From: Citrus sinensis
Lineage: Eukaryota; Streptophyta; Magnoliopsida; Sapindales; Rutaceae
Direction of reading: 5' to 3'
NCBI RefSeq assembly: GCF_022201045.2
Contig: NC_068558.1
Coordinates: forward strand, 46,465,001 to 46,529,000
DNA length: 64,000 nucleotides
In this document: positions 6,803 to 57,067 of the stretch, piece by piece
How positions within the stretch are numbered: position 1 is the stretch's first letter
Layout: the number at the start of each line of letters is the position of its first letter
Notes under the pieces: generated by a model
Told to the model about the DNA's origin: nothing
What the model saw: the letters and a program-made list of their open reading frames with translations, nothing else
Databases searched by the model: none
Position numbers and translations under genes: made by a program

Positions 6803-7309
<507 letters not shown>

Positions 7310-8357: not shown

Positions 8358-8359
8358 CA

Positions 8360-9245: not shown

Positions 9246-10216
9246 ATGGCGAAAACTAAGTTGGCAAAGCGCAATCCGCCTGAACCTAGGAAGGAGCCGG
9301 GCGTGATGAAGTTATATTTTGATGATCATTTCCCGGGTCGTATTTCAGAGACGTCAAAATTTAAAAAAGTCATCGCAGCTATCCAGTGTAAGCTAACGCG
9401 CAAACAATTGTCATTGTTTAGAAGTGATGTTTTTGGGCACTTCCTGGACTTGGGTAGTTATAATTTCAGTGGTGTTATATTTCACAACCTATTGCTTAGG
9501 CAAGTGGCACATAAAAAAACTAATAAAAATCAATTATGGTTTCAAATTGGAGAGCACTTGGTTCGTTTATCAATTGGAGAATGGTGCCTCATTACGGGGC
9601 TTTCCAATGGTCCGAACATCGAACCAAAAAATTTGAAGACGCAACATAGGTTGCTTAATAAGTACTTCGGTGGTCGGTTTAAGGACTTGACTCTCAAGCA
9701 ATTGGATGCTAGATTTTCCGCTTTGAAATTTCGTGCCATGGACGACACTGATGCCTTGAAAATCGCGTTGTATTACTTTGCGGATAGGGTACTGAAGGGG
9801 AGAAAGGATCATAGTCAAGCTGACTTTCAGCTAATGAATCATGTTGACGATATAGACCACTTTCGAAGTCGTCCATGGGGTCGTTTATCGTGGGAAATAA
9901 TATACGACAGTTTAGATAATGCATTGAACCAGAAGGCCAACAAATTTAAGATGGAGCGTTTGAAAGATCCTTCTCATAATATTGAGAAATACAATATTTA
10001 TGGGTTCAGTCATGGGGTTCAGGTGAGTTGGTAAAAAAAAAAAATAATATTAGAGTTCGTTAGTAGTATATTTATACCAAATTAACTTATGTGGTTTTTT
10101 AACTTTGTTTGTTGTAGGCTTGGCTTTTCGAAGTGATCGAGGGGATACCATCACAGTTTCTACAGGTGGCTCAAGATCTTGGTAATCAACTCGAGAAGAT
10201 GTGGTCACAAATATAG
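9246..10216 (+). CDS. MULE-borne DUF1985 protein, truncated before its ULP1 part
   Basis: Exons 9246-10022 and 10118-10216 join in phase 0 (CAG|GTGAGT ... TTGTAG|GCT) to give about 291 residues. The N-terminus is basic (MAKTKLAKRN). The middle shows DUF1985 features: a FGHFLDL...NFSGVIFHNLLLRQV-like block, LWFQIGEHLVRLSIGEWCLITGL, YFGGRFKDLTLKQL and PWGRLSWEIIYDSL, ending GFSHGVQ|AWLFEVIEGIP. In plants this domain normally precedes a ULP1-type cysteine protease inside Kaonashi MULEs. Here the frame stops soon after exon 2, at the join with reversed transposase sequence, so the protease is missing. Its role in the element is unknown. A transposon passenger, not a host gene. Confidence 0.75.
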
Positions 10217-18167: not shown

Positions 18168-19047
18168 TTAGGTGGCTGAAGAAGAACTGTGATTCACCAC
18201 CGTGAAGCCTCCATCAACAGCCAAATTATGCCCACTGATGTAAGCAGATTCATCAGAAGCAAGAAATAATGCCGCCTCCGCAATGTGCTTGGCCTTCAAA
18301 ACAATGCCCTTCAGGTTAGCCAACGCACAACTATTAGCTTCAACTTCATCTGGCCTCAAATTGTAAGCTGTACATGAAAGAGGCGTGGCAACTCCAAACG
18401 GGGAGATGCAATTGACTCTGATCCCATAAGCGCCAAGCTCGCTACACGCTGTTCGGACCAAACCAACTAGAGCATGCTTCGATGTTGTATATGCATGTGG
18501 AGCTGTTCCTCCAAGCGAAGAGGCAACACTCGTAGTGCAAATGATTGAGCCACGGATATTTTTATCCACCATAGCACGAGCTGCGTGCTTAATGGTTGCC
18601 GCAACTCCACAGACGTTTGTGGCCATGGTGTTGCCAAATCCAGTGAGGTCAAGTTCTAGGATGCCTGTTAATGGGCCCATGATTCCAGCATTGCTGAACA
18701 AAACATCAAGCTTTCCATACTTCTCCAATGTGTACCTCACTGTTTCTTCAACTTGCTTCTCATCTCGGACATCGCAGTGGTGATAACAAACTTGATCTGT
18801 GCCTACAGATGCAGCAACTTGATGGCCTAACTCATCGTGGACGTCAGCAGCAACAACAAAGGCTCCGTGCTCAGCAAATAATCTCACTGCTGCCTCGCCG
18901 ATCCCGCTAGCTGCACCAGTGATAAGCGCCACCTTACCCTCCATCCTAATTATTGAAAAAATAAAAATCGTATGAACAGAAAAGGCATTAATGGAGATCT
19001 GAGGTTGTTAATTAAGTAATAATAGATGGTTACCTTGGGTTAGACAT
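18168..19047 (-). CDS. Short-chain dehydrogenase/reductase (SDR110C; ABA2/SDR3-like)
   Basis: A 14-nt first exon (19047-19034, MSNPR) splices across an 88-bp GT-AG intron to the main exon 18945-18168, giving 263 residues. The main exon alone opens with MEGKVALITG, but the short leader exon restores the family N-terminus. The Rossmann NAD(P) motif is TGAASGIG, with D-V for the adenine pocket (CDVRDE), NAG in NAGIMG, and the catalytic Ser/Tyr/Lys in TTSVASS and YTTSK. The closing AVDGGFTV is typical. The plant SDR110C group includes xanthoxin dehydrogenase (ABA2), secoisolariciresinol and isopiperitenol/carveol dehydrogenases and momilactone synthase-like enzymes, so the substrate is a small alcohol in hormone or specialised metabolism and cannot be fixed here. 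Confidence 0.92.
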
Positions 19048-22733: not shown

Positions 22734-24836
22734 ATGCTACGTCACTACATACGCACAACCCAGGTAACAGATAGAGTCGGTCTATCTTTACTCCACTTTC
22801 GCCGCTTATTAAAAAGCCATAGAACCACCACCATCTTCAAACCAACAGTCACTGAACAGTCATCGGTTCAAATGTATATGGAACCGAAAGGCACTATCGT
22901 CTTCACCACTGTAGGCAGGCCTTACTACGGCTTCGACGTTTTCTCAATCAAATCGCCATTCGTCAATGCACCAAAATTCCACGAGCATCGCCTCACCGAT
23001 GGCACTTCCATCAATTTCAACGCCCAGTTTGTCGACGGACAAGATCAAACAATCGCCTTCATCTCCGAGCGTTCCGGTTCTCCCCGTATTTACCAGACCC
23101 GACCCGGATCGTCCAAAACGGAGCTGTTACCTTCCATTCCCTGCAGCCTCTTTCACGATCGCCCTGTTGCAAGAAACGACAAGCTCTTCTTCATTTCAGC
23201 CCATGAGCAGCCCGACCAAATCTTCAAGAGCTGGTCTGCTCTTTACTCCACCGACCTTAAGGCAAGCAAATTTACCAGATTGACCCCTTATGGAGTTGTC
23301 GACTACAGTCCTAGTGTTTCTTACTCTGGCAAATTTATAACCGTTGCCTCTTATGAGTCTCGACCTTGGCCTGGTGAATTCCACGAGCTTAATACGGATA
23401 TAGTTGTTTTTCAAGAATCTGATCCGAATAAGCGAGTGATTGTATGCGAACGAGGCGGCTGGCCCACCTGGTCTGGTGACTCCACCATTTACTTCCACCG
23501 CCAAGCTGATGATGGCTGGTGGAGCATTTTCCGAGTTAGCTTCCCGGAAAATTTAGAATTTCTTGGTTTCCCGATAGCTCCTACTCGTGTGACACCACCG
23601 GGTGTTCACTGCTTTACTCCCGCCGCCTTTCACGATGGCAAACGACTCGCCGTTGCAACTCGGAGGAAAAATAGGAATTTTCGACACATTGAGATTTATG
23701 ATCGCGTATCAAAGGAGTTTTACCCGGTGACTGAGACACTCAACCCGAATTTCCACCATTACAACCCGTTTGTCTCTGCTAATTCAGAGTTCATCGGCTA
23801 CCATCGATTTCGAGGTGAGTCAACCGAAGGCCAGTCAACCATTCCTCATTTGGAACCGGTAGCGTCTCCGGTTAAAGAACTTCGAATGCTTAGACTCAAC
23901 GGCTCATTCCCTTCCTTCTCCCCAGACGGTGGTTTGATTGTGTTCAATCATGATTTTGAATTGAATGCTGGAATCAAGATCGCTAAATCTGACGGTTCTA
24001 AACGATGGACTCTAATCAAAGACCGTACAGCTTTCTACAACTCGTGGAGTCCCACAGAGAAACACGTCATCTACACATCTACCGGTCCAATTTTTCAGTC
24101 AGAAAGAGCGACGGTCCAGATTGCACGAGTTTCGTTTCAACTTGACCCTTCCGATGATAACAATAGGGAAGAAATCCCATGTGATGTAAAGATCCTTACG
24201 AAAGAAGAAACAGGAAATAATGCCTTCCCCTCGTGCTCGCCAGATGGCAAGTTTCTCGTATTTCGCTCAGGACGGTCCGGTCACAAGAATCTCTTCGTAC
24301 TTGACGCTGTCAACGGCGAGTTTAACGGTGACATTCGTCAGTTAACTGATGGGCCGTGGATTGATACAATGCCAAGCTGGTCACCTAAAGGAGACCTCAT
24401 AGCTTTTTCCTCCAACAGGCATAATCCAGATAACGTTGAAGCGTTCAGTCTATATGTTATTAAACCTGACGGCTCTGGTCTAAGGCGAATCCATGTGGCC
24501 GGCCCTGAGGGGTCAGGTGACGTGGACAGGGAGAGGATTAATCACGTCTGCTTTAGTGCCGATGGGGAGTGGCTCTTGTTCACGGCTAATCTGGGAGCAG
24601 TGATGGCTGAGCCGGTGTCGTGGCCCAATCAGTTCCAGCCATATGGAGACCTATATGTGGTCAAATTGGATGGCAGTGGATTAAGGAGGCTGACATGGAA
24701 CGGATATGAAAATGGAACGCCAGCGTGGCATCCAGGCAATCAGCTAGATTTGGGGAAATTGCGTCTCGAGGATGACATTGGAGATAAACTGAGGGGCCAA
24801 TTTGATGAGCCACTTTGGATCTCTTGTGATTTTTAA
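22734..24836 (+). CDS. TolB/DPP6 N-terminal-like beta-propeller protein
   Basis: A single intronless frame of up to 700 residues. Repeated PD40-type blades are visible: SFSPDGGLIVFNHD (about 395-410), SWSPTEKHVIYTS, SCSPDGKFLVFRSGRSGHKN, SWSPKGDLIAFSSNRHNPDN, VIKPDGSGLRRI, CFSADGEWLLFTANL and VKLDGSGLRRLTWNGYENGT. This is the pattern of the plant family annotated TolB-related or DPP6 N-terminal-like (Arabidopsis At1g21670/At1g21680 type). No catalytic Ser-Asp-His peptidase domain follows, so it is propeller-only, and its molecular role is unknown. An in-frame ATG at 22872 (MYMEPKGTIVFTTVG) matches the usual family start; the extra 46 Arg-rich residues from 22734 may be untranslated or a targeting extension. 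Confidence 0.88.
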   Translation: MLRHYIRTTQVTDRVGLSLLHFRRLLKSHRTTTIFKPTVTEQSSVQMYMEPKGTIVFTTVGRPYYGFDVFSIKSPFVNAPKFHEHRLTDGTSINFNAQFVDGQDQTIAFISERSGSPRIYQTRPGSSKTELLPSIPCSLFHDRPVARNDKLFFISAHEQPDQIFKSWSALYSTDLKASKFTRLTPYGVVDYSPSVSYSGKFITVASYESRPWPGEFHELNTDIVVFQESDPNKRVIVCERGGWPTWSGDSTIYFHRQADDGWWSIFRVSFPENLEFLGFPIAPTRVTPPGVHCFTPAAFHDGKRLAVATRRKNRNFRHIEIYDRVSKEFYPVTETLNPNFHHYNPFVSANSEFIGYHRFRGESTEGQSTIPHLEPVASPVKELRMLRLNGSFPSFSPDGGLIVFNHDFELNAGIKIAKSDGSKRWTLIKDRTAFYNSWSPTEKHVIYTSTGPIFQSERATVQIARVSFQLDPSDDNNREEIPCDVKILTKEETGNNAFPSCSPDGKFLVFRSGRSGHKNLFVLDAVNGEFNGDIRQLTDGPWIDTMPSWSPKGDLIAFSSNRHNPDNVEAFSLYVIKPDGSGLRRIHVAGPEGSGDVDRERINHVCFSADGEWLLFTANLGAVMAEPVSWPNQFQPYGDLYVVKLDGSGLRRLTWNGYENGTPAWHPGNQLDLGKLRLEDDIGDKLRGQFDEPLWISCDF

Positions 24837-27640: not shown

Positions 27641-30600
27641 ATGGACGATAGCTGCGCGGTGTGTGCCGATACTTTGGAATGGGTTGCGTACGGGGGGTGC
27701 GGTCATCGAGAAGTGTGTTCGACATGCGTGGCTCGGCTCCGATTCATTTGCCAGGACCGCCGTTGCTGCATCTGCAAGACCGAAAACAACGTCGTTTTTG
27801 TCACCAAGGTCTGTTAGGGTTTTCCCTCTTTCAATTACCGTCAACACTAACAAATAGATTTCATCATAATTCTGCTATACATTATTTCAACTGTAATTCC
27901 CGGCTGCAATATTGTATCTTGTCAATGTCTTTGTCGGCGTTCACTTTTTTCGAATTGATATTGCTATGCTACTGTGTTGTATTTACTAGGTATGAGTAGT
28001 TGTAACTCGCCCTCTAAAAGTGTGCTATAGATTTGAAGACACACAAATCTTAATGTTATTCATATACAAGCTAGATATTGTAAATCCAAGCACTGGATTT
28101 CCCTTGAAATGATGAACGTGATATGATGGCTTTTGAGCTTTGATTTAAGTGCGTCTCTCTCTGCTTAATGATGTGCCAATAGAACACGTTACTAATACTG
28201 AGAAGTTGTGTGTTGTGGCATTATATTAGTTATTAAAATTTGATGTTTGTATGACTTTCTTACTGATGTCAATTACTAAACTTAAATGTTTAGACAACTA
28301 ATTTCTGTTTAGTTTGGTGAATGTTGATGGAAATCCATTTGTACTGATTAATTTACGAACTTCCCTTCTGATTGATTTCTTTTCAGGCTTTAGGTGACTA
28401 TACCAGGATGATCAGTGACTTCTCAGTCTTGCCAACTGAATTGAGGGAAGGCCGAGTAGGTTCATACTGGTATCACGAGGACACACAGGCATTTTTTGAT
28501 GATGTTGATCACTACAAGATGATCAAGGCAATGTGCCGGCTTTCATGTAGTGTGTGTGACAACATGGAGGGACCAAATGATGGGTCAAAGCGACGGGCTA
28601 GGTTTAGAAATATTGAGCAGTTGAAGGGCCATTTATTTCATCGACATAAATTGCTTATGTGCAGTCTATGTTTGGAAGGACGAAAGGTGAGATTTATATG
28701 TCTGGCATCTTGTTCATGGAATTTTTTTTTTTTTTTTTGGGTGTTTGCCCTACAGAAGTGTTAGAAATATATCTATTTAGTGTTATTTTTCCAAGAAATA
28801 GTCCTCAAAATTGATGCCACTTGGCTCCTTGTTTACTGTCTTAATGAAAATATGGCCACACACCTTTTTTTTAAAAAAAATAAAATTTTGGCCTTGGGTT
28901 GCATGGTCTCAATATTTTTTTTGCATGTATTAGTTAACTAAATCTATGTTCCTTCTGTTTAAAGCATTATTGTCTCACCAATTTATTTGAACAATACAGG
29001 TATTTATTTGTGAACAAAAATTATATACTAGAGCTCAATTGAATCAACATATAAACTCAGGTGATTCGGTGGTTGATGGAACTGAAAGTGAAAGAGGCGG
29101 CTTTATGGGGCATCCTATGTGTGAATTTTGTAGAACCCCGTTCTATGGGGATAATGAGCTGTATACACATATGTCCACAGAACACTATACTTGTCATATA
29201 TGCCAAAGGTAACGTGTGCCCTTTTTTTCTCTCCTCCTAATGAAAACTTTGTGAATATTCATTTTAGAACCATTAGGACTTTAAATTGTTTCTGTGATTG
29301 TTTGTTGTTATATGCAGGCAGCATCCAGGTCAATATGAATATTACAAGAATTATGATGACCTAGAGGCGAGATATATTCTCTTCTGTCTTTGATTCTGAA
29401 TGGCATTAAAATTTTATGCTGCTTCGTGATTGTTTTCAAACTAAGAGCGCCTTATTAACAAGCGTTGTTGACTGGCACAGATTCACTTTCGTCGAGATCA
29501 TTTTCTCTGTGAGGATGAAGCGTGTCTTGCCAAAAAGTTTGTCGTCTTTCAATCTGAAGCAGAGATGAAGGTAACCTCTTAGACCATATGAATATTGAAG
29601 GTTGTATGCTTTTTTTGCCGGGTTACTTCTGTGTGTTCTTGGTGTAACCCTATCAATCTCATTTTTGATCTTTTACCACATTAGAACATGGTTTGACTTT
29701 TTTCTTCTTTTCCAGAGGCATAATGCAATTGAACATGGTGGGCGTATGTCTCGTGCTAAACGTAATGCAGCTCTTCAGGCATGTTTTCTCTTCCATTTGT
29801 AAATGCAAGGGGATCTGATCCTTTGTAATTATCTTTGTTGTTGCAGTTGAATTCTTGCATCCTCTATTTCCCTGCTTGTTTATTTTTTATTTTTAACAAA
29901 TTTTGTGTATCAGATCCCAATTTGCTTTCGTTATCGTCGAAATAATGAACAAGAACATCGTCGTGGAAGGGGACGGACATTTCATCGCGAGTCATCTGAT
30001 GTTAATGAACTTTCTATGGCCATTCAGGCAAGCCTGGAGACAGTTGGTGCTGATAGCACTTCTTATGATCCATCATCTTCCAGATCACTAGTCTCTGATC
30101 ATGGAGATGCAGAAGATATTGATACACTCATTCAGCCATTTGAATCATTGGCAACAACCGATTCTGAATTAGCTTCAAGATACCTTCAAGCCTTGGGTCA
30201 AAACTCAAGGACAGCACCTCTGGAAGAGTCTTCTTTTCCTCCCCTTCCCATGGCTTCCAGCAGCAGTCAACAAAATCCCAGAAGTAATTCGGAAGGTTTG
30301 CCTAATAGCATGGCAGCACATCTGCGGCGCAAAAATAACAGAAATGTAACTGTTCTCCATGCAGGCCTTGGTTGGCCATCAGCAAGTCAAAGGCCTGTGC
30401 TATCATCTAATAACTCAACCCAACCTAGGCGTGCAGCAAACATTGGATCTGCTGTGTCACAAAGTTCTAGTGGTAGCCGTACTGTGTCGTGTAAAGCAGC
30501 TTCTGCTCAGGCTCAGGTACTGGCCCAGTCAACAGCAGTTTCATCTGCTTCTTCAAGGAACTCAGGCAACATCAGAAGGATAACCCACTCTGCATCAGCT

Positions 30601-31536
30601 CCAAATCTTGCAAATGGATCAGTAGAACCTTCTGTTTCTGATTTCCCTCCGGTTTCTGCAATGAGAACTGACAAAATGCCTTCGATAAGCCAGCCTGCGC
30701 CGAGTGTTGAGAATATTCAAGCTGCAAACAGATCTTTGGTAGAAAGGATGCGTGCTGCTTTTGAATATGATGAAGACAAATATACTGCTTTTAAAGACAT
30801 AACTGCACAGTACCGGCAAGGTTTGATTGACACGAGAAAATATCTGGAATATGTGAAGCAATATGGCTTGTCACATTTAGTTCTTGAGTTGGCCAGGCTC
30901 TGTCCTGATGCTCTGAAACAGAAAGAGTTGATCGAGACCTACAATGCTACTTTGCAAGGGAATAATCAGTTAGACAATGATTGGGCTCACATCAGTGTCC
31001 GGGCGAAAGATACTAATGGCAGCAAAAAAAGCAAAGGGAAGTCTGTGGCTACTGAAGCCTGTAAAAATGATAAAGGGAAATCTACCGTGGCTAATGACAG
31101 TAATTCTAAGCATGCAGTAGCGAATAATTTTTTAAGCACTGTTAGGGAACTGCAATCAAGTTTCAAACCTTCAGAAGAAGACGAGGAGGTATTGTCTAAG
31201 GATGGATATCGTGGTGCTAAAGGAAAATCAAAACCAATGGTGGATGAGCAGCTTAGGGGTCAGAATGACTTGACATCTGCTGGGGGTGGATCTAGTCAAA
31301 CTTCTGTGGATAGGGGTGGTGGGGGAAAGCAACGGAAGAAAACCTCAAAGTTCCACAGAGTACGGCTTGGTGATGGCTCAATGGCTGCACTTTTGGATCT
31401 AAAAAATTCTGATACTGGACCTGATCCTGAGCCATTGGACAGCAGGTTAGATGGCAACCAGAATCCAGCTGAAGGATTACCAGTCCCTGTGCGTGGTGTT
31501 TGGAAAAGGGGTGGAGGTCACAAACTCTTCTCTTAA
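27641..31536 (+). CDS. ZNF598/Hel2-like RING-type E3 ubiquitin ligase
   Basis: Seven exons (27641-27808, 28387-28686, 29000-29208, 29318-29366, 29481-29570, 29716-29778, 29914-31536) close in phase to 833 residues. The N-terminal RING is CAVC...GGCGHREVCSTCVARL...CCIC. C2H2-type fingers follow: CSVC, HLFHRHKLLMCSLC, MCEFCRTPFY...HMSTEHYTCHIC and HFRRDHFLCEDEACL. Then comes KRNAALQ|IPICFRYRR and a long Ser/Gln-rich low-complexity half with a conserved LVERMRAAFEYDEDKYTAFK block and a glycine-rich tail. Homologues ubiquitinate 40S proteins of collided ribosomes to start ribosome-associated quality control. Introns 4 and 6 appear to begin with GC (GAG|GCGAGA, CAG|GCATGT). Length and order fit the plant members. 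Confidence 0.9.
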
Positions 31537-32593: not shown

Positions 32594-34518
32594 TTAACAA
32601 GTCTGAATTCTTTCATAACCAAAGGTTTTCTCACTGCTGTAGCACATATACAGGAATCCATCCTCATCCTTGAAGGATTCATAGACTGAGTCCATTAAAG
32701 TCGCTGCAGATAATAGTTGTAGATTAACATATCAGTAGATATTCTCTCAGATAGCTCCATACAATATTCAAAAAACATGAATTTTTTATTTTATTTTTTC
32801 CAGAAATTCACCTGTTTGCGGTAAAGTATCTTTCACAAATACAAAGAGAGCTTTTCCAGGGGTCAGGTGAAGCCTGCTGCTTAAAATGTGAATAAATTGC
32901 CCAACAGACATGTCCCGAGGAACCAGAAATCTATCATCAAATAACCAACAGAAATAAGTTATGGAGACCATCTAAACCAAGTTAGAGTAGTTCTGAAGAA
33001 TAAACAAAAGATTAAAGATCATGAAAGGAAATATTAATCAGTGCATGCGATGCTCCATCCACTATTTTATTCTTTAGCTTAATAAATAAGTAAACTTATT
33101 AAAAGAAAAAAGCATTCAAGTACACAGAAAGTGAAAACCTGAAGAAGTAACCCGAAAGTTAAATAACAAGATCAAGTCTTCTCTAGAAACTCTTGGTAAA
33201 GAAAAAGCACAGAAATTTCACAAACAAATTTTTCTGAAAATTTTTTGCAGCGATGTGTCAGTTCCTTCTGAAGCAATTCAGCTCTGTCTGTGCCTTCATC
33301 CATCCCCAGAGAAAAGTTTGGCTACTCCAGCCCCATTGAGGTAACACTCTAACCATTGGGATAGGCCCCAGGACATTCAATAACAATTTAGGTCCAGAAA
33401 TTGTTTTCAATAGCAATTTTACTCTATTGAAACAGTAGTTCTAACATGAACTTGTGCACCATAACAGACTAAGCCCCATAATTGACCACCGCTAAGTATT
33501 TTGTCAAACACAACTCAGATTCTTTTGGGCAGTTAAACACAATTATTCCGCACTCCCCCAAACACAAACATATGTCAAAATATATGGGGTTATTCATATT
33601 TACACTGAAGTTGATTGTGTTTAGTACCCATGCAACAAACCAGATCCATAATCTTGATCAGTATGTTTTTCACATTCTCTCACAGCAGTAAAATCCATGA
33701 TTGTGTTACTAAAAGAGGCCAATGAAAAGTCAAAACTTTGGAAGAAAATTTTAATTCTCAATCAGTTCAAGAAAAATGTTAATAACTCCGAGATATCACA
33801 ATAATAATACTGATTGATTCTTCTTCAATATCCGGCTTTCATAAAATATCCCAAGTTCAAGTTTCAAGTTCACACGAATATCACCATTATTCGCCTCATT
33901 CACTTTTGTCATGCCAATAGTAACAGATACCAACAAACCAGTAAAAGCACAATAGAGCATCATCATCATAATTAAAGTAGACATAAGCAAAGATCAATTC
34001 TTTTAAAGGAGAACAGAAAGAATATAAAAAAAGGCGTACATAATTATTTTGAAAATGCTATGGGAAGTTAAACTAGAGATTAAAACTTACTTTTTCTTTT
34101 CCATATCAGGAAGGTCAGCTTTTGAATATCTTTCCGCAATTACCTGCAGAAATAAAAACAAAGCTATAACATACAAAATTCCCCATTTCTAATCAATTAC
34201 AAAATAATGGCCGTAAATAGTTCGCAGTTGCTAATTAGTTGATCACCAACCAAATGATCAGAGCCTATGAATTAGTAAATTCATAACGCGTGGACTTACG
34301 GGGACTCGATCGGGGTATTTCGCAATGATTTCGCGCGATTCTTCAAGTCTTTGCTCTGAAATGTTTTGTTAAAAAGGAAAAAAAGAAAGAAAAATAGAGA
34401 GTCAGCAGGTGCACTGAAAATATGTTAAAATAGAGGTTGTGTTATAGATATCAGAAGCAAAAGAAGAATGGAACAAACCGAATGTGAACTCGTCCTTGAA
34501 AGATTGCATCTTTCCCAT
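32594..34518 (-). CDS. ATG8: Autophagy-related ubiquitin-like protein ATG8 (ATG8h/i clade)
   Basis: Five exons (34518-34479, 34355-34300, 34143-34091, 32930-32812, 32703-32594) with GT-AG junctions close to 125 residues. The protein has the ATG8 layout: N-terminal helices [36 protein letters not shown], then [20 protein letters not shown], the LIR-docking surface [18 protein letters not shown], and [20 protein letters not shown] followed by EKTFG118. ATG4 exposes Gly118 so it can be joined to phosphatidylethanolamine on autophagosome membranes. Seven residues (YERIQTC) follow the glycine. The sequence style is that of the plant clade II (ATG8h/i) group, closer to animal GABARAP, whose members often have little or no tail. 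It shares a 334-bp divergent promoter region with the WDR6 homologue. Confidence 0.93.
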
Positions 34519-34670
34519 CTCCGTATCGTCTCAACTCTCAAGGAAAGAGAAACCCAAACGGCTGAACTACCCGTCAACTCTAAGATAGAATTGGATAAAT
34601 CTTTATTTATTTTAATAAATAAATAAAATATTATTAATATATTAAAAAAGTGACGAGATCTTATCATCGG

Positions 34671-34675
34671 GCGGG

Positions 34676-34718
<43 letters not shown>

Positions 34719-34743
34719 GCGTGTTCGATCCACGCTCACCGCA
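34671..34743 (+). tRNA. tRNA-Phe (anticodon GAA)
   Basis: A 73-nt intronless gene: acceptor GCGGGGA/TCACCGC with the plant-typical G5-A68 mismatch, D arm with A box TAGCTCAGTTGG, anticodon stem CAGAC-TGAAGAT-GTCTG-like with GAA at the wobble-to-third positions, and T arm GCGTG-TTCGATC-CACGC (B box GTTCGATCC), discriminator A. It reads as the standard plant cytosolic tRNA-Phe. It lies between ATG8 (152 bp from its ATG) and the WDR6 homologue (109 bp from its ATG). Confidence 0.97.
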
Positions 34744-34745
34744 AA

Positions 34746-34757
34746 TTTTTTTTTTTT
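34746..34757 (+). terminator. Pol III terminator of tRNA-Phe
   Basis: Twelve consecutive T on the sense strand begin 2 nt after the discriminator base, a strong RNA polymerase III stop. It prevents read-through into the WDR6 leader. Confidence 0.85.
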
Positions 34758-34852
34758 AAAAAAAATTAAATTTCAAGGTGACATCATGAACTCTCAAGAC
34801 CCGCGCCGTCGTATATTATCAAAAACATAGACTACATGCCGCGAACATCGCC

Positions 34853-37635
34853 ATGGGGAAGAAGGATCTCAGTGAATGGCGCCCAGACGTTGGCCAATAC
34901 CTCGGAGAAATCTCAGCCCTCTGTTTTGTCCATCTCCCTTCTCACCTCTCTTCACTTCCTTTTCTCCTGGCCGGTACTTTTTCTATTCATTTCTCTCTCT
35001 AAATCAAATGTTGGATTTTACGCTTTTTCTTCTCTTATTTGACTTCAAAGATTAATTTATGTTCTTTAAAAAGGTTCTGGTTCGCAAGTGCTGCTCTATG
35101 ACTTGGAAGCGGGAACACTGATAAGACCGTTTCAAGTCTTTCATGGGATTCGTTTACACGGCATCTCTTGTAATTTTATTAATTGCACTGAAGGATCAGT
35201 TTCTACGAGGGTCACGTTTGAAGTGGCCTTATTTGGTGAAAAGAGAGTGAAATTGTTTGAATTAAATTTTGAATTGTCGCCGAATTCTCAATATCAACCA
35301 GAAACATGTGTGAATTTGAGTTTAGTTCAGTCACTGCCGAGGTTAAGTCATTGGGTGTTCGATGTTTGCTTCTTAAAGGTACTCATTGTCTAACATGTAT
35401 ATTTCTTACCTATTTTTGAAGTGCTGCAAGCTATAACGGCTCCCTTTCTATGGGTGCTAGGTCTGCAACGGTAACCGTTCTCTAGCCATAGGATGTAGTG
35501 ACAATTCTATACGTGTGTGGGATATTTCTAACTCTAGTATCATTCTTGAAGTTCATTCTCCAGGTTCGTTTAATTTTAGTTCTACTCCTCAAACTGGCTT
35601 TATTTTATTTTATTTTTTTTAATGCGTGACAATTTCTTTTTGTGATAAAATTTATTTATTCATTTAGCCTTTTTTTTTTTGCCCCTTTGGTTTTAAATGT
35701 AGAGAGGTGCCTTCTGTACTCGATGAAATTATGGGGTGACAATCTTGAAGCTCTCCGAATTGCATCTGGTACCATTTATAATGAGGTGGCTAATCTTCCT
35801 TGTGATTGTTATTCTATATTTCCATTTTATCACTCATAGACACTTCCTTTAAAAACCCAAAAAAAAAAAATTTCCATACAACAAGAATGGCATTGGTATT
35901 AAGCTTTAGAGATTGGAGTTGTTGCTTTCAGTTTGATCATTGAGTTACTAGCTATCTTTGGAATGGTCTACTTTCTGCAGATTATTGTGTGGAAAGTGGA
36001 TTGGGAACATGTTGCTCCTCTTCTTAATAGTCCTGAGGGAAACCATGCTCATGGAAGCAGTTCAGACTTTAAGTGCTTCAAACTTCAGGATCAGCAGCAT
36101 ACAGCAGTGAATTTATTTAGACTTGTTGGACATGAAGGTTCTATATTCAGAATAGAATGGTCGTCCTGTGGATCAAAATTGGTTTCTGTTTCTGATGATC
36201 GTAGGTGAATAAGTTTCCAAGTACTATCATCCTTCTTTTTACTCCTTTCTTGGAGTGATTCGATGCATCATGTGCTTGTTTCACACAGTGCTCGTATCTG
36301 GGAAGTCCGTGCTGAATATTGGAAAGATTCTGATAGCATAGAGGAGGTTGGCAGCTCTGTTCTATATGGTCACAATGCTCGAGTTTGGGACTGCTGTTTA
36401 ACTGATTCTGTAAGTCTTGTAATTTTCAGTACACTTATGTGGTGTTCTTTTCTGGTGTTCACAATGATCTGAAGTTCTGATCCAATTATATTCTTTAAAA
36501 TGGTTTAAATCCTTTCTATATGTGCACCACTGTTTGGTTTGTCACCTTTTTCATTAGCTTATGATGGATTTATATTGGTGTGCTTGGTGGTTATGTTTTT
36601 AGATGGTTAATTCTCCATGCCTAATGGCCAGATGGGCTTTTATGAGGTAGATAAATAATTGAAAATAACATTAGATAATGCATAGCAGACAAGTTGCATG
36701 AAAATAGTGTGGCAAAGGAATAAACATGCTTACTATTGGGAACAAGTTATTACAAGTATATGCAGCATTCACCAGTCTCTTTGTTCTAAGCTCTATTCGA
36801 TGGCAGTGTCTTTTTTTTTGTTTTTAAATGCTTGAGATTTTTTGTCGATTTAAAAAAAAAAAATATTCCATGTCTGTGGAATGACTTTCCATTAGAAAAT
36901 TAAGTATAGCTGAAAATGTTTCCTTTCACTCCGTCATGGAATTATTTAATTGGAAGTGTTTATCTTCTTTTGGCTTAATAAATATGGACTTATGTTATGA
37001 ACTATAAGATCTTTTGTCGCCTGTATCAATTCTAGGTAACTTTAGAGACCATGCAATTTGTTGATGGTTGTCTTTTCTTTATGTTCCGGCTGGTTCTTGT
37101 TGGAGATATGCTGCGAATGCTCTACTCTTATGTGCTATTGGTATAGATCCATTTGTGGTTGTCATCATCTCGTCTTTTTCTTGAATTTCAAATAAGATTT
37201 TGGAACTAATGTTTAAAGTTGAGTTTTCCTCTTTTTATTCAGATATGAACTTTAGGATATGTTGCTGAGTTCTCTTGCATACTTTTCAGTTCATTATCAC
37301 CGCTGGCGAGGATTGTACATGTCGTGTGTGGGGATCAGATGGTAAACAGCTTAAGATGATTAAGGAGCACATGTAAGTTGCTGATATGTTTTCTTAATTT
37401 TTGTTTTTGAGATTTAATGGGTGTTTACAGCTTAGTTTTCGTGATGTATGACCTTAAAACCATAAGTTTGATGTATACATTTATTACATCTTTGGACCAT
37501 GTAGTCCGGGTGCTGGATAGAAGTATCTCAGGAAGAACTATATGGGTGTCTACCAGATTCTGACTCTCCTTAGACTACCTAGAGCATGACCTACTTGTAG
37601 GCCCCTATGCTCTATAACAGTTTTTTAATTTTTTA

Positions 37636-37681
<46 letters not shown>

Positions 37682-40600
37682 CTATTGGTAATTTAAAATC
37701 TTCTAGTTGCCATGAGGATGATAAAGTCAACATGAAAACGGAAGGGAACATAATACACTGAGTGGTACCATGATGGAATTTTGGTTCTTTTGCTGTACCC
37801 TAAGATCCTTTATGGAGTGCATCATGGAGTTCAAGCATTTTGACATATACTGTCTTCACAATAACTCTATGATTTTGGTTTCAATTTTCTCTTGTTGCTG
37901 GTGCTTCAGATAATGTAGCGTATCTGCATATGTGCTTTCTTTGCTCTATATGGACTGGTTTCCTGGCAAGTAAAATAGGAACTTTTCTTGAGCTTCTTCT
38001 TCTAGTCAGTGGTTGTAAGTACTTAGGACTTTGCCAGCCTCTGTGACTCGTGACTACCTGTTTAACCAACAAGTATAAAGGGGGCTAGTCTTCATCTAAC
38101 TTGTAATTTAGTATCCATGTCATGATAGAATAGATGGAAGACATTTACAGCTTTGTTGTTGCACAGAGGAAGAGGCATATGGCGATGTTTGTATGATTCA
38201 TTATCTTCTCTTCTTGTTACTGCTGGGTTTGATTCTGCAATCAAAGTGCATCAGTTCCAAGCTTTTTTGCCTGGAAGCTTGGAGTCACATCCTGAAGCAA
38301 AAGAGTTTAATGGGAGAACTGAAATATTCAGCATAAAAATCCCAAATTTCTCAGAGCAGATTCGGCTTACAGACAGGTAAACCTGTGTTTTATTATTGGA
38401 AATCTCAGACGTTGACTCCTACATCACTAATTACCCATATATTCTATTTTCCATGCCTCAAGCCAAAGATATAGATGGTGTGGACTTCTCAACTTGTTGT
38501 ATTGTTTGGACATCTTCAATGTGTGAACAAACAAGTTGGAAATTCACAAACTTTCATGCTCCTCGATGCCTCATCCCTTCATGTCTACTTGGTATTTTAT
38601 AGTGTTCTAATCTTTGTGTATAATCTGTGCACTGTTGACTTTGTGGTTGCAGCAAAAGTGAATATGTGCGTTGTTTGCATTTGACTTCTGAAGATACCCT
38701 TTATATTGCCACAAACCATGGTTATCTGTACCATACCAAGTTATGTGACATGGATAGTGTGAACTGGAATAAAATTCTGCAAGTTAGTGAAGGGATGCCA
38801 ATTATTTGTATGGATCTGTTGTCAAATGAGCCTAAGTATCCCTGTGGAATTGATGATTGGGTTGCTCTTGGAGACGGTAAAGGAAATATGACAATTGTTA
38901 GAGTAGTTGGTGATGTTCATACTCCTCAATTGAGCTTCACCTTTACTTGGTCGGCTGGCATTGAGAGACAGCTATTGGGAACCTACTGGTGCAAGTCACT
39001 GGGACATAGGTATTAATTATTTCTTCACCTTATCAAGATAACAAATTAAGGTTTTCTGGTTAGTATGAATAGGTGGGATAGCTTTGAATGTGTTGCCCCA
39101 TTAATTACTAAGTTCCAATGTTAAACTGATCATTTGATCAATCAATTGCCTCTTTGCTTTTATTTCTTTTGATGGGTCAAAAGAACATTTAGGTTGTGGT
39201 GTTGTTCAATTAGTTTCTAAGTGACAATTCCATGCCATGCTGTAAGTCCTGCCTGTTCTTAAATGAGAGATATCTGAATCTTCTTGCTTCCTTTTAGATA
39301 AGTTCAAGGTATTAACAAGACACTAGTTCATGTACTGTAGGTTTATCTTCACTGCAGATCCTAAAGGAAGGTTGAAGCTTTGGCAGTTATGTGATCCTTT
39401 CTCATCTGTTTGTTATGAATCTTCAAAGACTAACAATGTCTTTCTGGTTGCGGAATTTTCTTCCTGTTTTGGGGCACGAATAATGTGTTTGGATGCGTCC
39501 TTTGAGGATGAGGTATCTATTTGTCTCATTTCTTTCTCTGATTTCATTTGCATTAGGTACAAGATAGGAATTGTAACTCAAATACTTAAATGAATAACAC
39601 TGTTCCTGATTGTTCAGTTGTACATACATGCAATTGATGCATTTCTCTTTCTCAAAGAGAATTTTGTTTACTGGTTAAGAGTATTTGAATATGTGCAGGT
39701 GCTGTTTTGTGGAGATTTACGTGGGAATCTGGTTTTGTTCCCTTTGCTGAGGGACCTCTTGAACGACAAATCTGTTGCTTTACATGTGGAAGTATCTCCA
39801 CTAAATTATTTTAAAGGAGCTCATGGCATATCTACTGTTTCTACTCTTTCAGTTGCTAAATTGAGATCCAATCAAACTGAAATACGCTCGGTATGACCCA
39901 AAATCAACCTTTCAGATATGCAAACGAATCAATCACAAATGTTGCTGTTAAGTATTTTTCTTAAGAAGGAAAACTATTGTAATACTTCCCAATTATTGTT
40001 ATTTGTTTTATCAATTAGAGACATGGAAAAAGAATGTCATCAAGAAAGTAGTACAAAAATCAGCATAATTAAAAGAAATAACCCATGGGATGGTTGATTA
40101 GTATGACTCCATTTCCAATCAAGTGGTCATGGGTTCAAATCTCTCTGGGACTGACTGCCTAGATAATCTATCCCATCAAGTTCCCAACAACCAATTGATA
40201 TTTTCAAACCCAGATAACAAGCTGAGGAATTTATTAGTTACCAATATAGAAGGGGTTAAAGAAACGTAAAGAACATAACTAAAAAGATGTGAGAAGAGTG
40301 TCACACAGATGTCATTTCTTTGACTGGCAGCATCCGGCATTTTTTTAAGGAATTGACAATCCACTATCTGGGAAATGTGTGCATGCCTGCATTTTTGCGT
40401 ACTTCCTGATATGAATATGTGATTGAGAATTTCCATATGTCTTTTTCTTTACTTTTCCTTTTCAGACTGGGGGAGACGGTTGCATATGCTATTTGGAATA
40501 TGACAAGGATCGTGAAAGTCTAGAATTTATTGGGATGAAGCAAGTGAAAGAATTGAGTTTGATTCAATCTGTCTCTGCTGAAAACAATTCCATTGATTTG

Positions 40601-43600
40601 GCAAGTTGCAACTACGCAGCTGGTTTTGCATCAACAGATTTCATAATATGGAACTTAATAACTGAGGCAAAGGTAAATTCCTCAGTCCCTCTGCTGAATA
40701 GAAAAAAGAAAAAAAAATCAGCTTTGCTATTGTCCTGTTGCAGTACTTTTGATGCCTTAGGGTGGATGTTGAGGTAGGTTGTGCAAATTCCATGTGGTGG
40801 ATGGCGGCGCCCTCATTCTTACTTTCTTGGTGATGTACCAGAGATAAAGAACTGTTTTGCATATGTCAAGGTGAGTTTACTTACCCTAGTTCAAACATTT
40901 CTTTGGTGTGAAGTCAGGAAATCAAGTATTACAAGATAACAATTGTTGATTCACTTGCATGGCAACTGCACGCTTAGAAGTGGGAACTATAAAATAGTTA
41001 GTAATGTTAGCTACCAAAGACACTACAAATTGATTTTGTACAACATGTCACAGTTAGAACATCATCATATGCATAATGAGAGAATATATAATTAGGGATT
41101 ATCCAATGAAATTGAATTTGGGTCTATTTGTTGCCAGATAGGCACAGTGGGGTAAATCTGCTTTAAACATTGGTAAAGTCAAACAAAAATGTATTGACTG
41201 TGGTTCTAGCTGAATCTTTTCATTCATGTCCGACAGTTCCATTTTAATCAGATATTGTAACATCTGTATGGTGTTTCCTGCGGCAGTATTTGGAGAAATT
41301 TCTTGGTTATCCTCCTTGCTTTTGCCCCACTTACTGTAGTAGGGTTTAATGATATATTTGTTGCTAACATGTCTATCCTTATTTAAACCGTGCCTCCATC
41401 TGCCCTTTTTTTCCTACTTTCTTGAGAACGAATGGTGACAATGTTCTACACTTTGGACTACAGGCAAATCAGCTTTGGCGATTGAGAGACTTATGTAGTT
41501 TAATATGGTGGATTCTTCATCAGGACCTACATAATATGAAACTATATAAACATTTTCTGTGTTCTCTCTTCAATATTCTTATGATCTTATGTCCTTTTCC
41601 TTATGAAACTATAGACTCTGACATTTTCTGTGTTTTTTTCTCTTCAATATTCTTATGATCTTTGGTGCTTTCATTTTTTTTTTTTTTCAAAAGAATTTTA
41701 CAAGGTAGCATGGATTTGCATTGAACTTCTTACGACCAACATATCGGGCTCTTCATCATATTCTAATGTTTTAAATATTAACCCATGATATTTCAATGGT
41801 CCTTTAACCCAATCTTACTGTATCTAAGCTACAATTCTGTCAAAATTGGCCTTGAAATGACCCTGTGGCTATTTTTCCTGTATGGATTCATCTGTCATCT
41901 TTCAGTGCACTTCTTATGGTTCTCTCGTTTTCATTTTTGTTTCCTACCCCTCATTCAATCTTCTTTTTAAGGATGAAGTTATCCATATTCATAGACACTG
42001 GATATCAAATGGTGAGAGGAAGATGTTCCCAAAGAATTTGCATATGCAATTTCACGGTAGAGAAATACACACCTTATGCTTTGTGTCTGAAAATTTTCAA
42101 GTTGGAGCAAACGTGAAGAAGAGTGCTTTGAATAAATCGAGTTGGATTGCAACTGGATGTGAAGATGGGACTGTGAGGTTGACAAGGTATGCTGTTTACT
42201 ATTTTCCACCAGAAATCTGACATAAAATGGATGTGCTTAACTTTTTGATGTTTTAACATCACCCGAGTTTTAACTCCCCACTTACCAGCTCTCTTTTTTT
42301 ATTACATTATTTTTTTTACAGCTGTAGTGATCTGGAAGTTTAACATAGTTACCTATTTTTCTACTTAGGTATTCTCCTGGATTTGAGAATTGGTCCTCAT
42401 CAAAACTGCTTGGGGAGCATGTTGGTGGGTCAGCTGTGAGGTCTATATGTTTTGTCTCAGAAATAAACCAAATTTCTGCAGTTGTGGACAACGTATCTGA
42501 AGAGATAAATAGACAAAATGGTGTTGCAGAGGACAAAGAGAATCCATTCTTGTTGATATCAGTTGGAGCAAAGCGGGTCCTAACTTCGTGGCTGCTGAGA
42601 CACAGGGGGATAGACGAGATGGAAGAAACAACTGTTGAAAGTAAATATAATAGAAATGGAAATGACCTGGAACTCTCATTGGGAGCATCCTCATCATTGT
42701 CATTCCAATGGCTTTCCACTGACATGCCAACCAAGAATTCCAGCACTCATGGGAAAAAGAAAGACATGAAGAAAGTGGATCACATTACCAGAAACATTGC
42801 TAGTATGAACGCTAATGCAAAGACTGGATCGATTTCTTCAGAAAGCAGGGAGAGAGAGGCAAAAGCTTTCCTTGGAGATAAATATGAAGATGACTGGAGA
42901 TACCTGGCTGTCACTGCATTTCTTGTTAAATGTCCTGGTTCCAGGTCAGACAAACTTCATTTTGTGCTGCCGATTTGATATGTTCTATACTGTACCTAAA
43001 TCCTGGTATGTGAAAAGTTTCTCTTATGTGTCTCCTGTCAGGTTAACTGTGTGTTTTGTTGTTGTTGCCTGTTCGGATGCCACACTTGCCTTACGGGCAC
43101 TCATTTTACCGCTTCGGTTATGGTAGGCTCTCGGAATTTAATTTACTTAGGATTTTCGATAAGTCTGCAGTCATTCACTCCCTGTCATGCTTAGTGTTAA
43201 CTTTTTCTTCTTACCTCATCCCAGGTTTGAAGTTGCTATGTTGGTTCCCCTGTCATCACCAGTGTTAGCATTGCAGCATGTCATCATGCCTATACATCTT
43301 CCTTCTAAGGGTTAGTTGATCATTAAAAATCTTTAGTTGTGTTAAAAATAGTGCCAGTATAGTATTTTATCCTTAAAAGACTCTTTAAATATGAAAATTT
43401 TCTTCCAGCAATGACTGCCCTTCTGGTATATATTTGTCATTTTTTCGTATATTTTTAAAATCATATTTGTTATGAGTGACACACATATGGTGCTTCAGAA
43501 ATCTTGCAATTTGATTGTCTTGAGGTTGCCTTCTCCTAAATTCCTAATTGGTTTTAGCCAGCAACACGTAATTTGTTAACCCTTGTCTAATTAGTAGTAT

Positions 43601-45596
43601 CTTTGGATGACCTGCAAGTCTTTGTCTCATCTGCACTCCTGAACATTCAAAAATTATAAATTCAGATATTAAGAGATTTCTGAGTAGGCTTCTTTCTCAT
43701 GAGGGGTATGCTTCCCCTTGTGAAACTAAGTGCAATTTTATTTCTCCATTATCTTGATTTTTCTTTCAAGGGTGGCTATTTGCTGGGACTTCAGTAGTAT
43801 AATCTGGACTGAATGGGCTCTTTATGGGTGCTATTTTTTGGTGTTGCTATTATGAAACTAAATCTTAGGGCAAGTGATTGTGGATTTAGTATATAATTGA
43901 AGCCTTTTATGTACTCGTACCACATTTTGGCATTTCAATGTCTTTCGTTTCTTGCGTTGGGTCATTAAATGTTATAAACTACTCTTACAGAGAATGTTCA
44001 AATTGGATCCTCATATTTTGTCATTAGTGGAGCCACTGATGGAAGCATTGCCTTTTGGGACGTGACTGGGCATGTTGAAACTTTTGTGCAGCAAGTGTCT
44101 ACTCTTCATATTGAGAACTTCATAGACTGTCAGAAACGGCCACGTACAGGAAGAGGAAGCCAGGGTGGACGATGGTGGAGAAATTTAAGGCATACCAGGC
44201 CTAATAAAGAAAGTGGCAGCAGTATAGTTAGTGTGCGAACTGAAGGGGGAGTACAAAATCATGATGCATGTGGAGTGTCTGCGAAGGTAAATGATACGGA
44301 AAACTGCACTGTTGAAGATGGACAAATTGCTTCTTGTGAGCCAGAACTAAATGCAGTCAATTCAACTTCTGAGACTTCTGAAATTCGGCCAATACATATT
44401 TTGAATAATGCTCATCAATCTGGTGTTAATTGCCTTCATGTTTCAAAGATAAAGAACTGTTGGAGTACTGAATGTGGTTTCCATTTCTATGTTGTAAGTG
44501 GGGGCGATGATCAAGCAATTCATTGTCTAAGAGTTGATTTATCGTTACTATCAAGAGGTCCGGATTCTGAGATTATAGCAGCAGATGTCATAAATTCAAA
44601 CTCTGAATCTGAAGATGTGAAGAGTTTAATTTATTATGGGCAGGAGCAGAACCAAAATTATAGAATCAGATTTTACAATTATTTCAGAGCCACCTCTGCT
44701 CACAGCTCTGCCATAAAAGGTGAAAATAACTTAATCTCGTGATCCAATCATTTATCTTTTGACTGGTCTAGTGTTCTTGCTTTTCATGGTTGAAAAAAAA
44801 TGACGGTACTAGCTTTATTATGTTTCTCCTGCAGTTTCTTTACCATCTATTGCTAAAATCTTTCCAGTAGAGGTTTTGGTTTTCTCATAATCTCATAATC
44901 ATGTCTTACTGAAATTCCTTCTTCCTTTCCCTTGTGTGTGTTGCTGGTATTTTATTTGATACCTTTGTGACTCATTTACTCGATATACTGATTATTCCTA
45001 TCAAACATTATGTAATATGAATGATCATCTTATAAATAATCTTTTCTGTATAATCTTCTAGTTAGGATTGTATTCCTTTCAAATGACATGCTGCCCTGGA
45101 AGAACAAATATACAGGCCTTTTAATAATGTTTGAGCAAGGTCCTTTTTCTTTTGGGGGGTTTAAAGCAAGGTCTTTCATGCTAATATTTTTTTTGCTTTT
45201 GATGAATTACAAATGGGTTTCTGTACATGAAGGCATTTGGACGGATGGCACCTGGGTGTTTTCTACTGGACTTGATCAGCGTATCCGTTTCTGGCTCCTA
45301 GAGGAACACAGTATTCTAAGTCAGCATGCTCATTTAGTTGTCAGTGTGCCAGAGCCAGAAGCATTGAGTGCCAGAGCCTGTGGCAGGTGAGTGAAGCATC
45401 ATTATACTTGACTACAAATCCAGGAAAGTCCCATGTGACAAAATCATAAACATATGATTCTGAATTTTGTTTCCACGCTCTTTTTGTGTGTATCCTTTAT
45501 TCCTTGTGCAGGAACCACTATGAAATTGCTGTAGCTGGAAGAGGTATGCAAATGGTTGAGTTCCACGCATCGACTGACATTGATGAGGAACAATAA
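34853..45596 (+). CDS. WDR6: WDR6/Trm734 homologue, WD40-repeat tRNA-modification cofactor
   Basis: Twenty exons were traced: 34853-34973, 35074-35378, 35461-35563, 35703-35785, 35981-36204, 36289-36409, 37290-37372, 38167-38376, 38653-39009, 39341-39512, 39699-39890, 40466-40672, 40778-40870, 41972-42186, 42369-42944, 43042-43122, 43225-43310, 43991-44719, 45233-45386, 45512-45596. The sum is 4,197 nt, i.e. 1,398 residues, in phase throughout. It starts MGKKDLSEWRPDVGQYLGEI. WD-type blades include LAIGCSDNSIRVWDIS, GHEGSIFRIEWSSCGSKLVS, GHNARVWDCCLTDS, ITAGEDCTCRVWG, ATGCEDGTVRLTR, ISGATDGSIAFWDVTG and STGLDQRIRFWLL. The family (human WDR6, yeast Trm734/Rtt10, Arabidopsis At4g01860) partners the FTSJ1/Trm7 methylase to modify position 34 of tRNA-Phe. 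Very short blades and large insertions are usual. Confidence 0.9.
37647..37679 (+). repeat. 33-nt poly-G run in WDR6 intron 7
   Basis: An uninterrupted G33 follows a T-run inside the intron between exons 7 and 8. Such a run is exceptional in AT-rich plant DNA. It is prone to G-quadruplex formation and to sequencing or assembly error, so its length is uncertain. Confidence 0.8.
40073..40210 (+). mobile_element. Probable SINE fragment in WDR6 intron 11
   Basis: GGTTGATTAGTATGACTCC (A-box-like) is followed about 35 bp later by GGTTCAAATCT, a textbook B box. Together they make a tRNA-like head of a different type from the SINE at 1792. No target duplication was fixed. Limits are approximate. Confidence 0.35.
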
Positions 45597-54074: not shown

Positions 54075-55256
54075 ATGGAGACCTTTCTATTCACCTCTGA
54101 ATCTGTGAACGAGGGTCACCCCGACAAGTTGTGCGACCAGATCTCTGATGCGGTGCTTGACGCCTGCCTTGAGCAGGATCCTGAGAGCAAGGTTGCCTGT
54201 GAGACATGCACCAAGACCAACATGGTCATGGTCTTTGGAGAGATTACCACCAAGGCCAAGGTAGACTATGAGAAGATTGTTCGCGACACTTGCCGTTCCA
54301 TTGGATTTGTTTCTGATGATGTGGGTCTTGACGCCGATCACTGCAAAGTCCTGGTCAATATTGAGCAACAAAGCCCGGATATTGCCCAGGGTGTTCATGG
54401 CCACTTTACAAAGCGCCCTGAGGACATTGGTGCTGGTGACCAGGGCCATATGTTTGGTTATGCTACTGATGAGACCTCTGAATTTATGCCTTTGAGCCAT
54501 GTCCTTGCCACCAAACTTGGTGCTCGTCTCACGGAGGTTAGGAAGAATAGTACCTGCTCTTGGCTAAGGCCCGATGGGAAGACCCAGGTCACTGTTGAGT
54601 ACTACAACGACAATGGTGCCATGGTCCCAGTCCGTGTCCACACGGTCCTCATTTCAACCCAGCATGATGAGACTGTCACAAATGATGAAATTGCTGCTGA
54701 CCTTAAGGAGCACGTCATTAAGCCTGTCATCCCCGAGAAGTACCTTGATGAGAAGACCATCTTCCACCTTAATCCATCAGGTCGTTTTGTCATTGGTGGG
54801 CCTCATGGTGATGCTGGTCTCACTGGACGTAAGATCATCATCGACACTTATGGTGGCTGGGGAGCCCATGGTGGCGGTGCTTTCTCTGGAAAAGACCCTA
54901 CTAAGGTGGATAGGAGTGGTGCATACATTGTTAGGCAGGCTGCTAAGAGCATTGTTGCAAACGGGCTTGCTCGCAGGTGCATTGTCCAAGTCTCCTATGC
55001 CATTGGTGTGCCTGAGCCATTGTCTGTTTTTGTGGACTCATATGGAACCGGCAAGATTCCTGACAAGGAGATCCTCAAAATTGTGAAGGAAAGCTTTGAT
55101 TTCAGGCCAGGAATGATGACCATCAATTTGGATCTCAAAAGGGGCGGTAATGGCAGGTTCTTGAAGACTGCTGCCTATGGACACTTTGGCAGGGATGACC
55201 CAGACTTCACTTGGGAAGTTGTGAAGCCCCTCAAGTGGGAAAAGCCTCAAGCTTAA
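54075..55256 (+). CDS. SAMS: S-adenosylmethionine synthetase
   Basis: An intronless coding frame of 393 residues, exactly the usual plant length. The enzyme makes S-adenosylmethionine from methionine and ATP in the cytosol, feeding methylation, ethylene, polyamine and lignin pathways. Visible signatures: [20 protein letters not shown] (substrate and metal site), the hexapeptide GAGDQG in [16 protein letters not shown], and the glycine-rich P-loop-like [37 protein letters not shown] and the C-terminal [17 protein letters not shown] are also standard. The start is the first ATG after the leader intron. No oddities. It converges with the X8 gene on the other strand. Confidence 0.98.
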
Positions 55257-56373: not shown

Positions 56374-57067
56374 CTAACATGGATTCTGGGTGACGATGAG
56401 ACCAGTGCCATTGAAGTGGCAGTTCCAGTAATTCTTGCCAGCTGACTTGTAAAAGAGATTCATAGCAAAAGAAGCATGCGATATGATACTGTCTGGATTG
56501 AAGCAGCTGCCACCTGGCTGAATTGGCCTACAGTCCACTCCCTTCTGCCGACAGCTGTAATCAATGTTGTGATTGAGGCTCTCATCGTCTGTTGATGGCT
56601 TAGCAATGCACCAGCTGGTCACCACGCCTTCATTTCTCTACAATTAAATTAAACATTATTTGAATTAACCCCAACCCCTTCTCCCCAAAAAAAAAAAAAA
56701 AGAAGAATTGCTGTTCCAATTATGCTTGGAACAGTGGAAGACTTACCCTCTCTTCTTGGACTCTTCCATTAGAATGCGTACTACTTAACTCCGCATGCCC
56801 TAAACCCACATTTACCATGTAGTGTTAAAAGTTGAGTAGGCTAACTGCAGCTAAAATCAAATACAAACATACAAAGCTAGGCCTAGGCAGCTGCTGCTTT
56901 AAAAAATTTCATCTAATTAATTAATTAGCATTGCTTAACGAAATTAAATATTAAAGCGTGTATAAGAAAAGTAATGGCGAAGAAAACGCACCTGAACAAT
57001 CCGCAAACCAGAACAGCAAAGCTAATGCTAGAAGGAAAAACGCCAAAGCGTGTCTTGTGCCCTCCAT
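56374..57067 (-). CDS. Secreted X8-domain (callose-binding type) small protein
   Basis: Three exons (57067-56992, 56799-56747, 56637-56374) with GT-AG junctions close to 130 residues. Residues 1-24 form a strong signal peptide (ALAFFLLALALLFWFADC). The X8/CBM43 domain occupies about 48-130: SWCIAKPSTDDESLNHNIDY, CRQKGVDCRPIQPGGSCF, ASFAMNLFYKSAGKNYWNC, FNGTGLIVTQNPC, with the six conserved cysteines and the NYWNCHF motif of the fold. X8 domains bind beta-1,3-glucan; stand-alone members act at cell walls, some at plasmodesmata with a GPI anchor. This one stops at the last cysteine and lacks a GPI tail, so it is probably a soluble apoplastic protein. No glucanase domain is present. Confidence 0.88.

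Follow-up and report, generated by a model that had tools for sequence, protein, structure and literature searches.

A tRNA-Phe gene in the divergent promoter of ATG8 and a WDR6/Trm734-like gene of Citrus sinensis: a probably old neighbourhood, with an unsupported cognate circuit

Introduction

What should we make of a transfer RNA gene that sits in front of a gene whose product probably belongs to a family that modifies that very tRNA? The question is raised by a stretch of Citrus sinensis DNA of 64,000 nucleotides (contig NC_068558.1, positions 46,465,001 to 46,529,000 of the forward strand), which we call the window, and within which all positions are given here. An intact tRNA-Phe(GAA) gene lies there between the divergent start codons of an ATG8 gene and of a predicted WD40 gene that probably belongs to the WDR6/Trm734 family. 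A first reading of the letters (the original prediction) had proposed that the activity of RNA polymerase III (Pol III) at this tRNA gene tunes the flanking promoters of RNA polymerase II (Pol II), linking the supply of a substrate to the expression of a modification cofactor. Our answer is more modest. It seems probable to us that this is an ordinary Pol III tRNA-Phe gene, probably active, lodged in the compact Pol II promoter of two divergent genes, an arrangement shared with grapevine, and that the pairing of the tRNA with its cognate cofactor is most likely incidental. The locus is real, probably old and of a known kind, and the proposed circuit is unsupported. Papers are cited below by accession.

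A tRNA gene within a compact divergent promoter

ARAGORN calls a single tRNA gene in the 64-kb window, a tRNA-Phe(gaa) at 34671-34743 on the plus strand, and a scan of the same window with Rfam, at gathering thresholds, retrieves only the tRNA family RF00005, with a score of 66.1 bits (gathering score 29) and an alignment that spans positions 1-71 of the 71 of the model. The gene is intact, with an A box (TAGCTCAGTTG) and a B box (GTTCGATCC); a stricter B-box pattern, GGTTCGANNCC, finds no match anywhere in the window, because the tRNA-Phe gene has a T ahead of GTTCGA. A run of twelve T on the plus strand (34746-34757), the expected Pol III terminator, begins two bases 3' of the gene. Upstream, an AT-rich region contains a TATA-like stretch at 34636-34647 of the same strand, that is, from -35 to -24 with respect to the tRNA, with TATA itself at -33. 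Because the match to the Rfam model is complete, both internal boxes are in place and TATA stands at -33, the gene probably looks active, CAA being its missing element. This absence is a point to be held against such activity: the 80 bp ahead of the gene (-80 to -1) contain no CAA triplet, and about 82% of dicot tRNA genes have CAA at most 50 bp upstream, 45% at most 10 bp upstream (PMC11700998). Over the 69 flowering plants of the same survey, TATA accompanies 22-32% of the tRNA genes, CAA within 50 bp some 78-82% and poly-T 67-72%. Folding of the tRNA as RNA was not used in this assessment, as it did no better than shuffled sequences (z -0.04; 85 of 200 shuffles equalled or exceeded its stability), and a scan of the window for bacterial promoters and terminators was set aside as inapplicable to plants.

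The interval that houses this gene is short. The start codon of ATG8, on the minus strand, is at 34518 and that of the WDR6-like gene, on the plus strand, at 34853, leaving a shared divergent promoter interval of 334 bp (34519-34852). From the tRNA-Phe gene there are 152 bp to the start codon on the ATG8 side and 109 bp on the WDR6 side, the latter gene being on the same strand as the tRNA. Between the tRNA and the WDR6 start codon, an upstream open reading frame (ORF) of 14 codons occupies 34786-34830 of the plus strand, and a second upstream ATG is found at 34836; both ATGs are out of frame with WDR6. All this upholds the anatomy that had been described at the outset, namely a full tRNA-Phe(GAA) gene, its twelve-T run, a gap of 334 bp from ATG to ATG and a distance of 109 bp to the WDR6 ATG: ARAGORN, Rfam and the sequence itself agree.

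The two flanking genes

The minus-strand gene (32594-34518) was assembled as a predicted model of five coding exons, joined by eye, that would encode 125 residues. Its identity as ATG8 is firm, with a match to PF02991 at 3.2e-45 over residues 15-118 and further matches to ATG8 among the PDB sequences. The ubiquitin-like domain of the predicted protein ends in Gly118, followed by a tail of seven residues. The nearest group, judged by eye, is that of Arabidopsis ATG8h/i; these proteins are not known to have such a tail after the conserved glycine.

The plus-strand gene (34853-45596) is a predicted 20-exon model of 1398 residues, which matches the Pfam WD40 family at 9.7e-20. No WDR6-specific Pfam family matched this model, and the top row, the first propeller of WDR3, was under its curated cut-off. 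Among the PDB sequences, yeast Trm734 (6jp6) is matched at 1.6e-12 over residues 248-374 of the model, and the residues from 275 on (SDDRSARIW) align from residue 198 of Trm734, so that R-I-W falls on Trm734 204-206. The SDD and RLW residues are required in yeast for the position-34 modification Gm34, and the WSH residues of Trm734 are numbered 218-220 (PMC11170731). The yeast RLW reads RIW in the window protein, and SDD, like R/K-x-W, is frequent in WD40 repeats at large. The ranking of Trm734 must be read in the light of whole-sequence scores that sum over WD40 repeats: with the full-length query it came eighth, behind seven other WD40 entries, and with residues 242-378 it came 25th, behind 24. 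With residues 275-354 it was 35th of 59 by total score, yet the sole one of the 59 with a single stretch passing the threshold alone. Of two shorter queries, one did not have it in the best 60 of 399 matches and the other did not have it among the five at E<=1, and residues 346-831 gave no PDB match at E<=1. A run of 33 G is also present at 37647-37679, in an intron of the model.

We therefore regard membership of the WDR6/Trm734 family as likely, not proven. What the window protein shares with the Trm7-Trm734 and FTSJ1-WDR6 pairs is a long multi-repeat WD40 architecture in which SDD and R-I-W align with Trm734 198-206; what sets it apart is that its match to Trm734 does not rise above generic WD40 proteins by whole-sequence score, and that its activity, partner and substrate are putative. 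The homology asserted in the original prediction thus stands in so far as Trm734 is matched with its SDD and RIW residues aligned, and is weakened by the other WD40 proteins that outrank Trm734. The role that had been given for the family, modification of position 34 of tRNA-Phe by Trm734 or WDR6 together with Trm7 or FTSJ1, is borne out by the literature (PMC11170731).

A counterpart in grapevine

Synteny with other plants was examined through the literature, and it is grapevine that provides the one lead for comparison. Among the 19 dicistronic pairs of Table 1 of PMC8166872, two involve the same tRNA gene, tRNA-Phe-GAA-1-4, which is joined once to VIT_07s0005g02200 and once to VIT_07s0005g02210, two consecutively numbered genes. 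The distance between tRNA and gene in these grapevine dicistronic loci has a median of 133 bp and a maximum of 1065 bp, and the 109 and 152 bp of the window lie inside this range of about 1 kb. The same authors note that every dicistronic tRNA they found has poly-T, as does the tRNA of the window. A further sign comes from the next grape gene, VIT_07s0005g02190, which one of five papers naming genes near this locus annotates as a C2H2 zinc finger (PMC4802899): in the window a ZNF598-like RING/C2H2 gene (27641-31536, plus strand; Pfam PAH_ZNF598) adjoins ATG8, lying beyond it, so that the marker and its side agree. In this gene RING_ZNF598 is above the Pfam cut-off and zf-C2H2, at 0.00055, is below it. 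The two loci have in common the type of tRNA, protein genes close on both sides and a poly-T terminator, and they are probably orthologous. As the grapevine tRNA-Phe-GAA-1-4 sits with consecutively numbered genes near a C2H2 zinc finger, we may take the arrangement ATG8, tRNA-Phe, WDR6 as probably old, and it may yield tRNA-mRNA read-through RNAs. Absence from relatives, which the original prediction had named as its refutation, is thus not what the grapevine literature suggests.

Several observations weigh against this kinship and have to be set beside it. Only PMC8166872 came up under the names VIT_07s0005g02200 and VIT_07s0005g02210, and the main texts searched did not give the identities of the two genes. 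The pipeline that produced the grape pairs disregards strand and keeps multi-mapped reads, and the three pairs described in the text as confirmed by reverse transcription-polymerase chain reaction are other loci (PMC8166872). The next grape gene on the other side, 02220, appears as LHCB1 or a chlorophyll a/b-binding protein in four of the same five papers, a difference from the window, where no such gene was found beside WDR6: between WDR6 and the gene for S-adenosylmethionine (SAM) synthetase (54075-55256, plus strand; Pfam), which serves as the synteny marker downstream of WDR6, there is no ORF of LHC length, the longest having 93 residues, and none of three LHC peptide patterns had a match beside WDR6 in the window. 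At the far end of the window, minus-strand pieces at 61270-62955 give weak ankyrin matches only in Pfam, and SPL peptide patterns find no match in the window; these pieces are presumably the C-terminal part of a gene of the SPL1/12 type cut by the window end.

If these pieces are indeed SPL1/12-like, they lend the kinship a softer support. An SBP gene is present on grape chromosome 7, among others, and synteny connects VvSBP7 with AtSPL1 (PMC3601960); from the numbering, VvSBP7 would be the gene of chromosome 7. That paper contains no VIT-style name of the 07s0005 scaffold, and passages of PMC10948825 and PMC7583067 name no chromosome-7 ATG8. No literature was found that joins WDR6, tRNA-Phe and Arabidopsis, and none under the names of the grape ATG8 family.

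The wider neighbourhood

A gene with PD40 repeats (22734-24836, plus strand; Pfam), presumably TolB-like, serves as a further synteny marker, and the order in the window is thus PD40 gene, ZNF598-like gene, ATG8, WDR6, SAM synthetase. It agrees in part with the Arabidopsis order, At4g01850 (SAMS), At4g01860 (WDR6) and At4g01870 (TolB). The grape SAMS gene is presumably VIT_07s0005g02230, a name that occurs in none of the five papers on neighbouring grape loci.

Pfam gives additional markers in a peroxidase (3480-4331), a fusion of ubiquitin with S27a (6839-7309), a short-chain dehydrogenase (18168-18944) and an X8-domain protein (56377-56637). A G+C-rich unit of 31 bp is repeated in about ten tandem copies at 7971-8359, with inverted copies alongside. 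Near these repeats, at 9246-10034, lies an ORF that carries DUF1985 and resembles a portion of a plant transposon. No relative of WDR6, ATG8 or the exact tRNA turned up among viral contigs, nor of the tRNA or a part of WDR6 among the contigs of bacterial and archaeal genomes, which is what one would expect of nuclear DNA from a plant.

Coincidence or circuit?

How surprising is it that a tRNA should stand next to the gene of a cofactor that acts on it? With assumed inputs (12-20 tRNA-Phe genes, 60-150 genes of tRNA enzymes, a genome of 400-486 Mb and up to fourfold enrichment of tRNA genes near genes), the chance of finding a tRNA-Phe gene in exactly this interval is about 8e-6 to 7e-5. With the same kind of assumed inputs, some 0.006-0.04 cases per genome are expected in which any tRNA-enzyme gene has, on one side, a cognate tRNA no more than 1 kb away, and a scan over many windows makes such a cognate pair unremarkable: coincidence is not negligible. 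One form of coincidence is a recent event confined to the window lineage, by which a tRNA-Phe gene came to lie in this promoter through insertion or duplication, with nothing conserved and no function beyond making tRNA-Phe. The multiplicity of tRNA genes and the estimate just given are in its favour, and it might have found a trace in a 10-nucleotide direct repeat, AACTCTCAAG, which flanks the tRNA segment at 34533-34542 and 34789-34798 in the manner of a target-site duplication; but a repeat of that length arises in 26 of 500 shuffles, and we rejected the duplication for this reason. A recent arrival sits badly with grapevine, where tRNA-Phe-GAA-1-4 appears between consecutively numbered genes and next to a C2H2 zinc-finger gene, and we consider it possible, if rather doubtful.

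The circuit would go much further. Assembly of Pol III on the tRNA-Phe gene would tune both neighbouring promoters, those of WDR6 and ATG8, and the supply of tRNA-Phe and the capacity for Gm34 would thereby move together; in one concrete form it would block poorly translated, 5'-extended WDR6 transcripts that carry the ATGs at 34786 and 34836. There is a precedent of this sort in yeast, where depletion of TFIIIC or mutation of the B box of a tRNA gene leads to more 5'-extended transcripts from a gene that lies about 200 bp off, transcripts that a section heading of the same paper describes as compromised for translation (PMC4228148). The geometry here is similar, and the upstream ATGs exist: at FAR3 and TIM21 a tRNA gene, or a tRNA-derived site for Pol III factors, lies some 200-330 bp from the Pol II gene, to be compared with 109 and 152 bp here. 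The yeast effects come from perturbation in budding yeast, while any effect in the window is predicted from sequence, and the tRNA there is flanked by two divergent genes. Moreover, one tRNA-Phe copy among many cannot report the supply of tRNA-Phe as such, ATG8, which is unrelated, lies at much the same distance from the tRNA, and in yeast Cm32 and Nm34 are also formed on tRNA-Trp and tRNA-Leu(UAA) (PMC6382703). Because ATG8 is so placed, because the yeast family has other tRNA substrates and because tRNA-Phe genes are multi-copy, the agreement of substrate and cofactor is better read as a coincidence than as a circuit, which in itself we judge unlikely. The same low standing goes to its broadest version, a conserved eudicot arrangement where the tRNA-Phe gene, resting on the core promoter of its own cofactor, would let the Pol III complex set the WDR6 start, suppress leaders with upstream ATGs and make the capacity for Gm34, and by way of ATG8 perhaps autophagy as well, depend on the output of Pol III. 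Of the original prediction, then, the general part survives, in that Pol III does affect Pol II neighbours locally in yeast; a tie specifically between the supply of the substrate and the expression of the cofactor finds no support, and read-through or coincidence is simpler. Its own caveat, that coincidence was a real alternative for a multi-copy tRNA, is vindicated by the chance estimate, by ATG8 and by the other yeast substrates.

It has also to be asked whether the tRNA, carried in the WDR6 leader, is a signal for mobility of the WDR6 messenger RNA (mRNA) in the phloem. Fusions of tRNA and mRNA can move between Arabidopsis organs (PMC8166872), and the tRNA is on the WDR6 strand only 109 bp away; even so, we give this idea hardly any credence.

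We come back, then, to an ordinary tRNA gene in a shared promoter with an incidental cognate partner. In grapevine tRNA-Phe-GAA-1-4 is linked to both of its neighbours, not to one (PMC8166872). Age is no argument for a circuit either, as old neighbourhoods of tRNAs and genes do exist: for four of the 19 grapevine pairs, whose genes the text does not name, the tRNA is beside the same gene in Arabidopsis (PMC8166872), so that conservation alone would not prove a cognate circuit. What such an ordinary gene would do to its neighbour follows from the narrowness of the place. Since there are only 109 bp between the tRNA and the ATG, the WDR6 mRNA would start inside this strip, in which case its core promoter would overlap the tRNA gene and the Pol II and Pol III machineries would share it or compete for it, or else its start would lie at the tRNA or upstream of it, giving a dicistronic tRNA-mRNA with the tRNA in the leader. 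The first option fits yeast, where a Pol III complex, once in place, can hold down the 5'-extended transcripts of a gene close by (PMC4228148), and the leader option fits the read-through RNAs of grape.

Significance of the locus

If the match with grape is confirmed, a tRNA-Phe gene would already have occupied this compact promoter before Citrus sinensis and grapevine split, and would have been kept there ever since, and the locus would be a clean place for asking whether Pol III genes steer their Pol II neighbours in plants. Were the cognate link to be true as well, it would be a rare case in which a tRNA gene is wired directly to the machinery that modifies its product.

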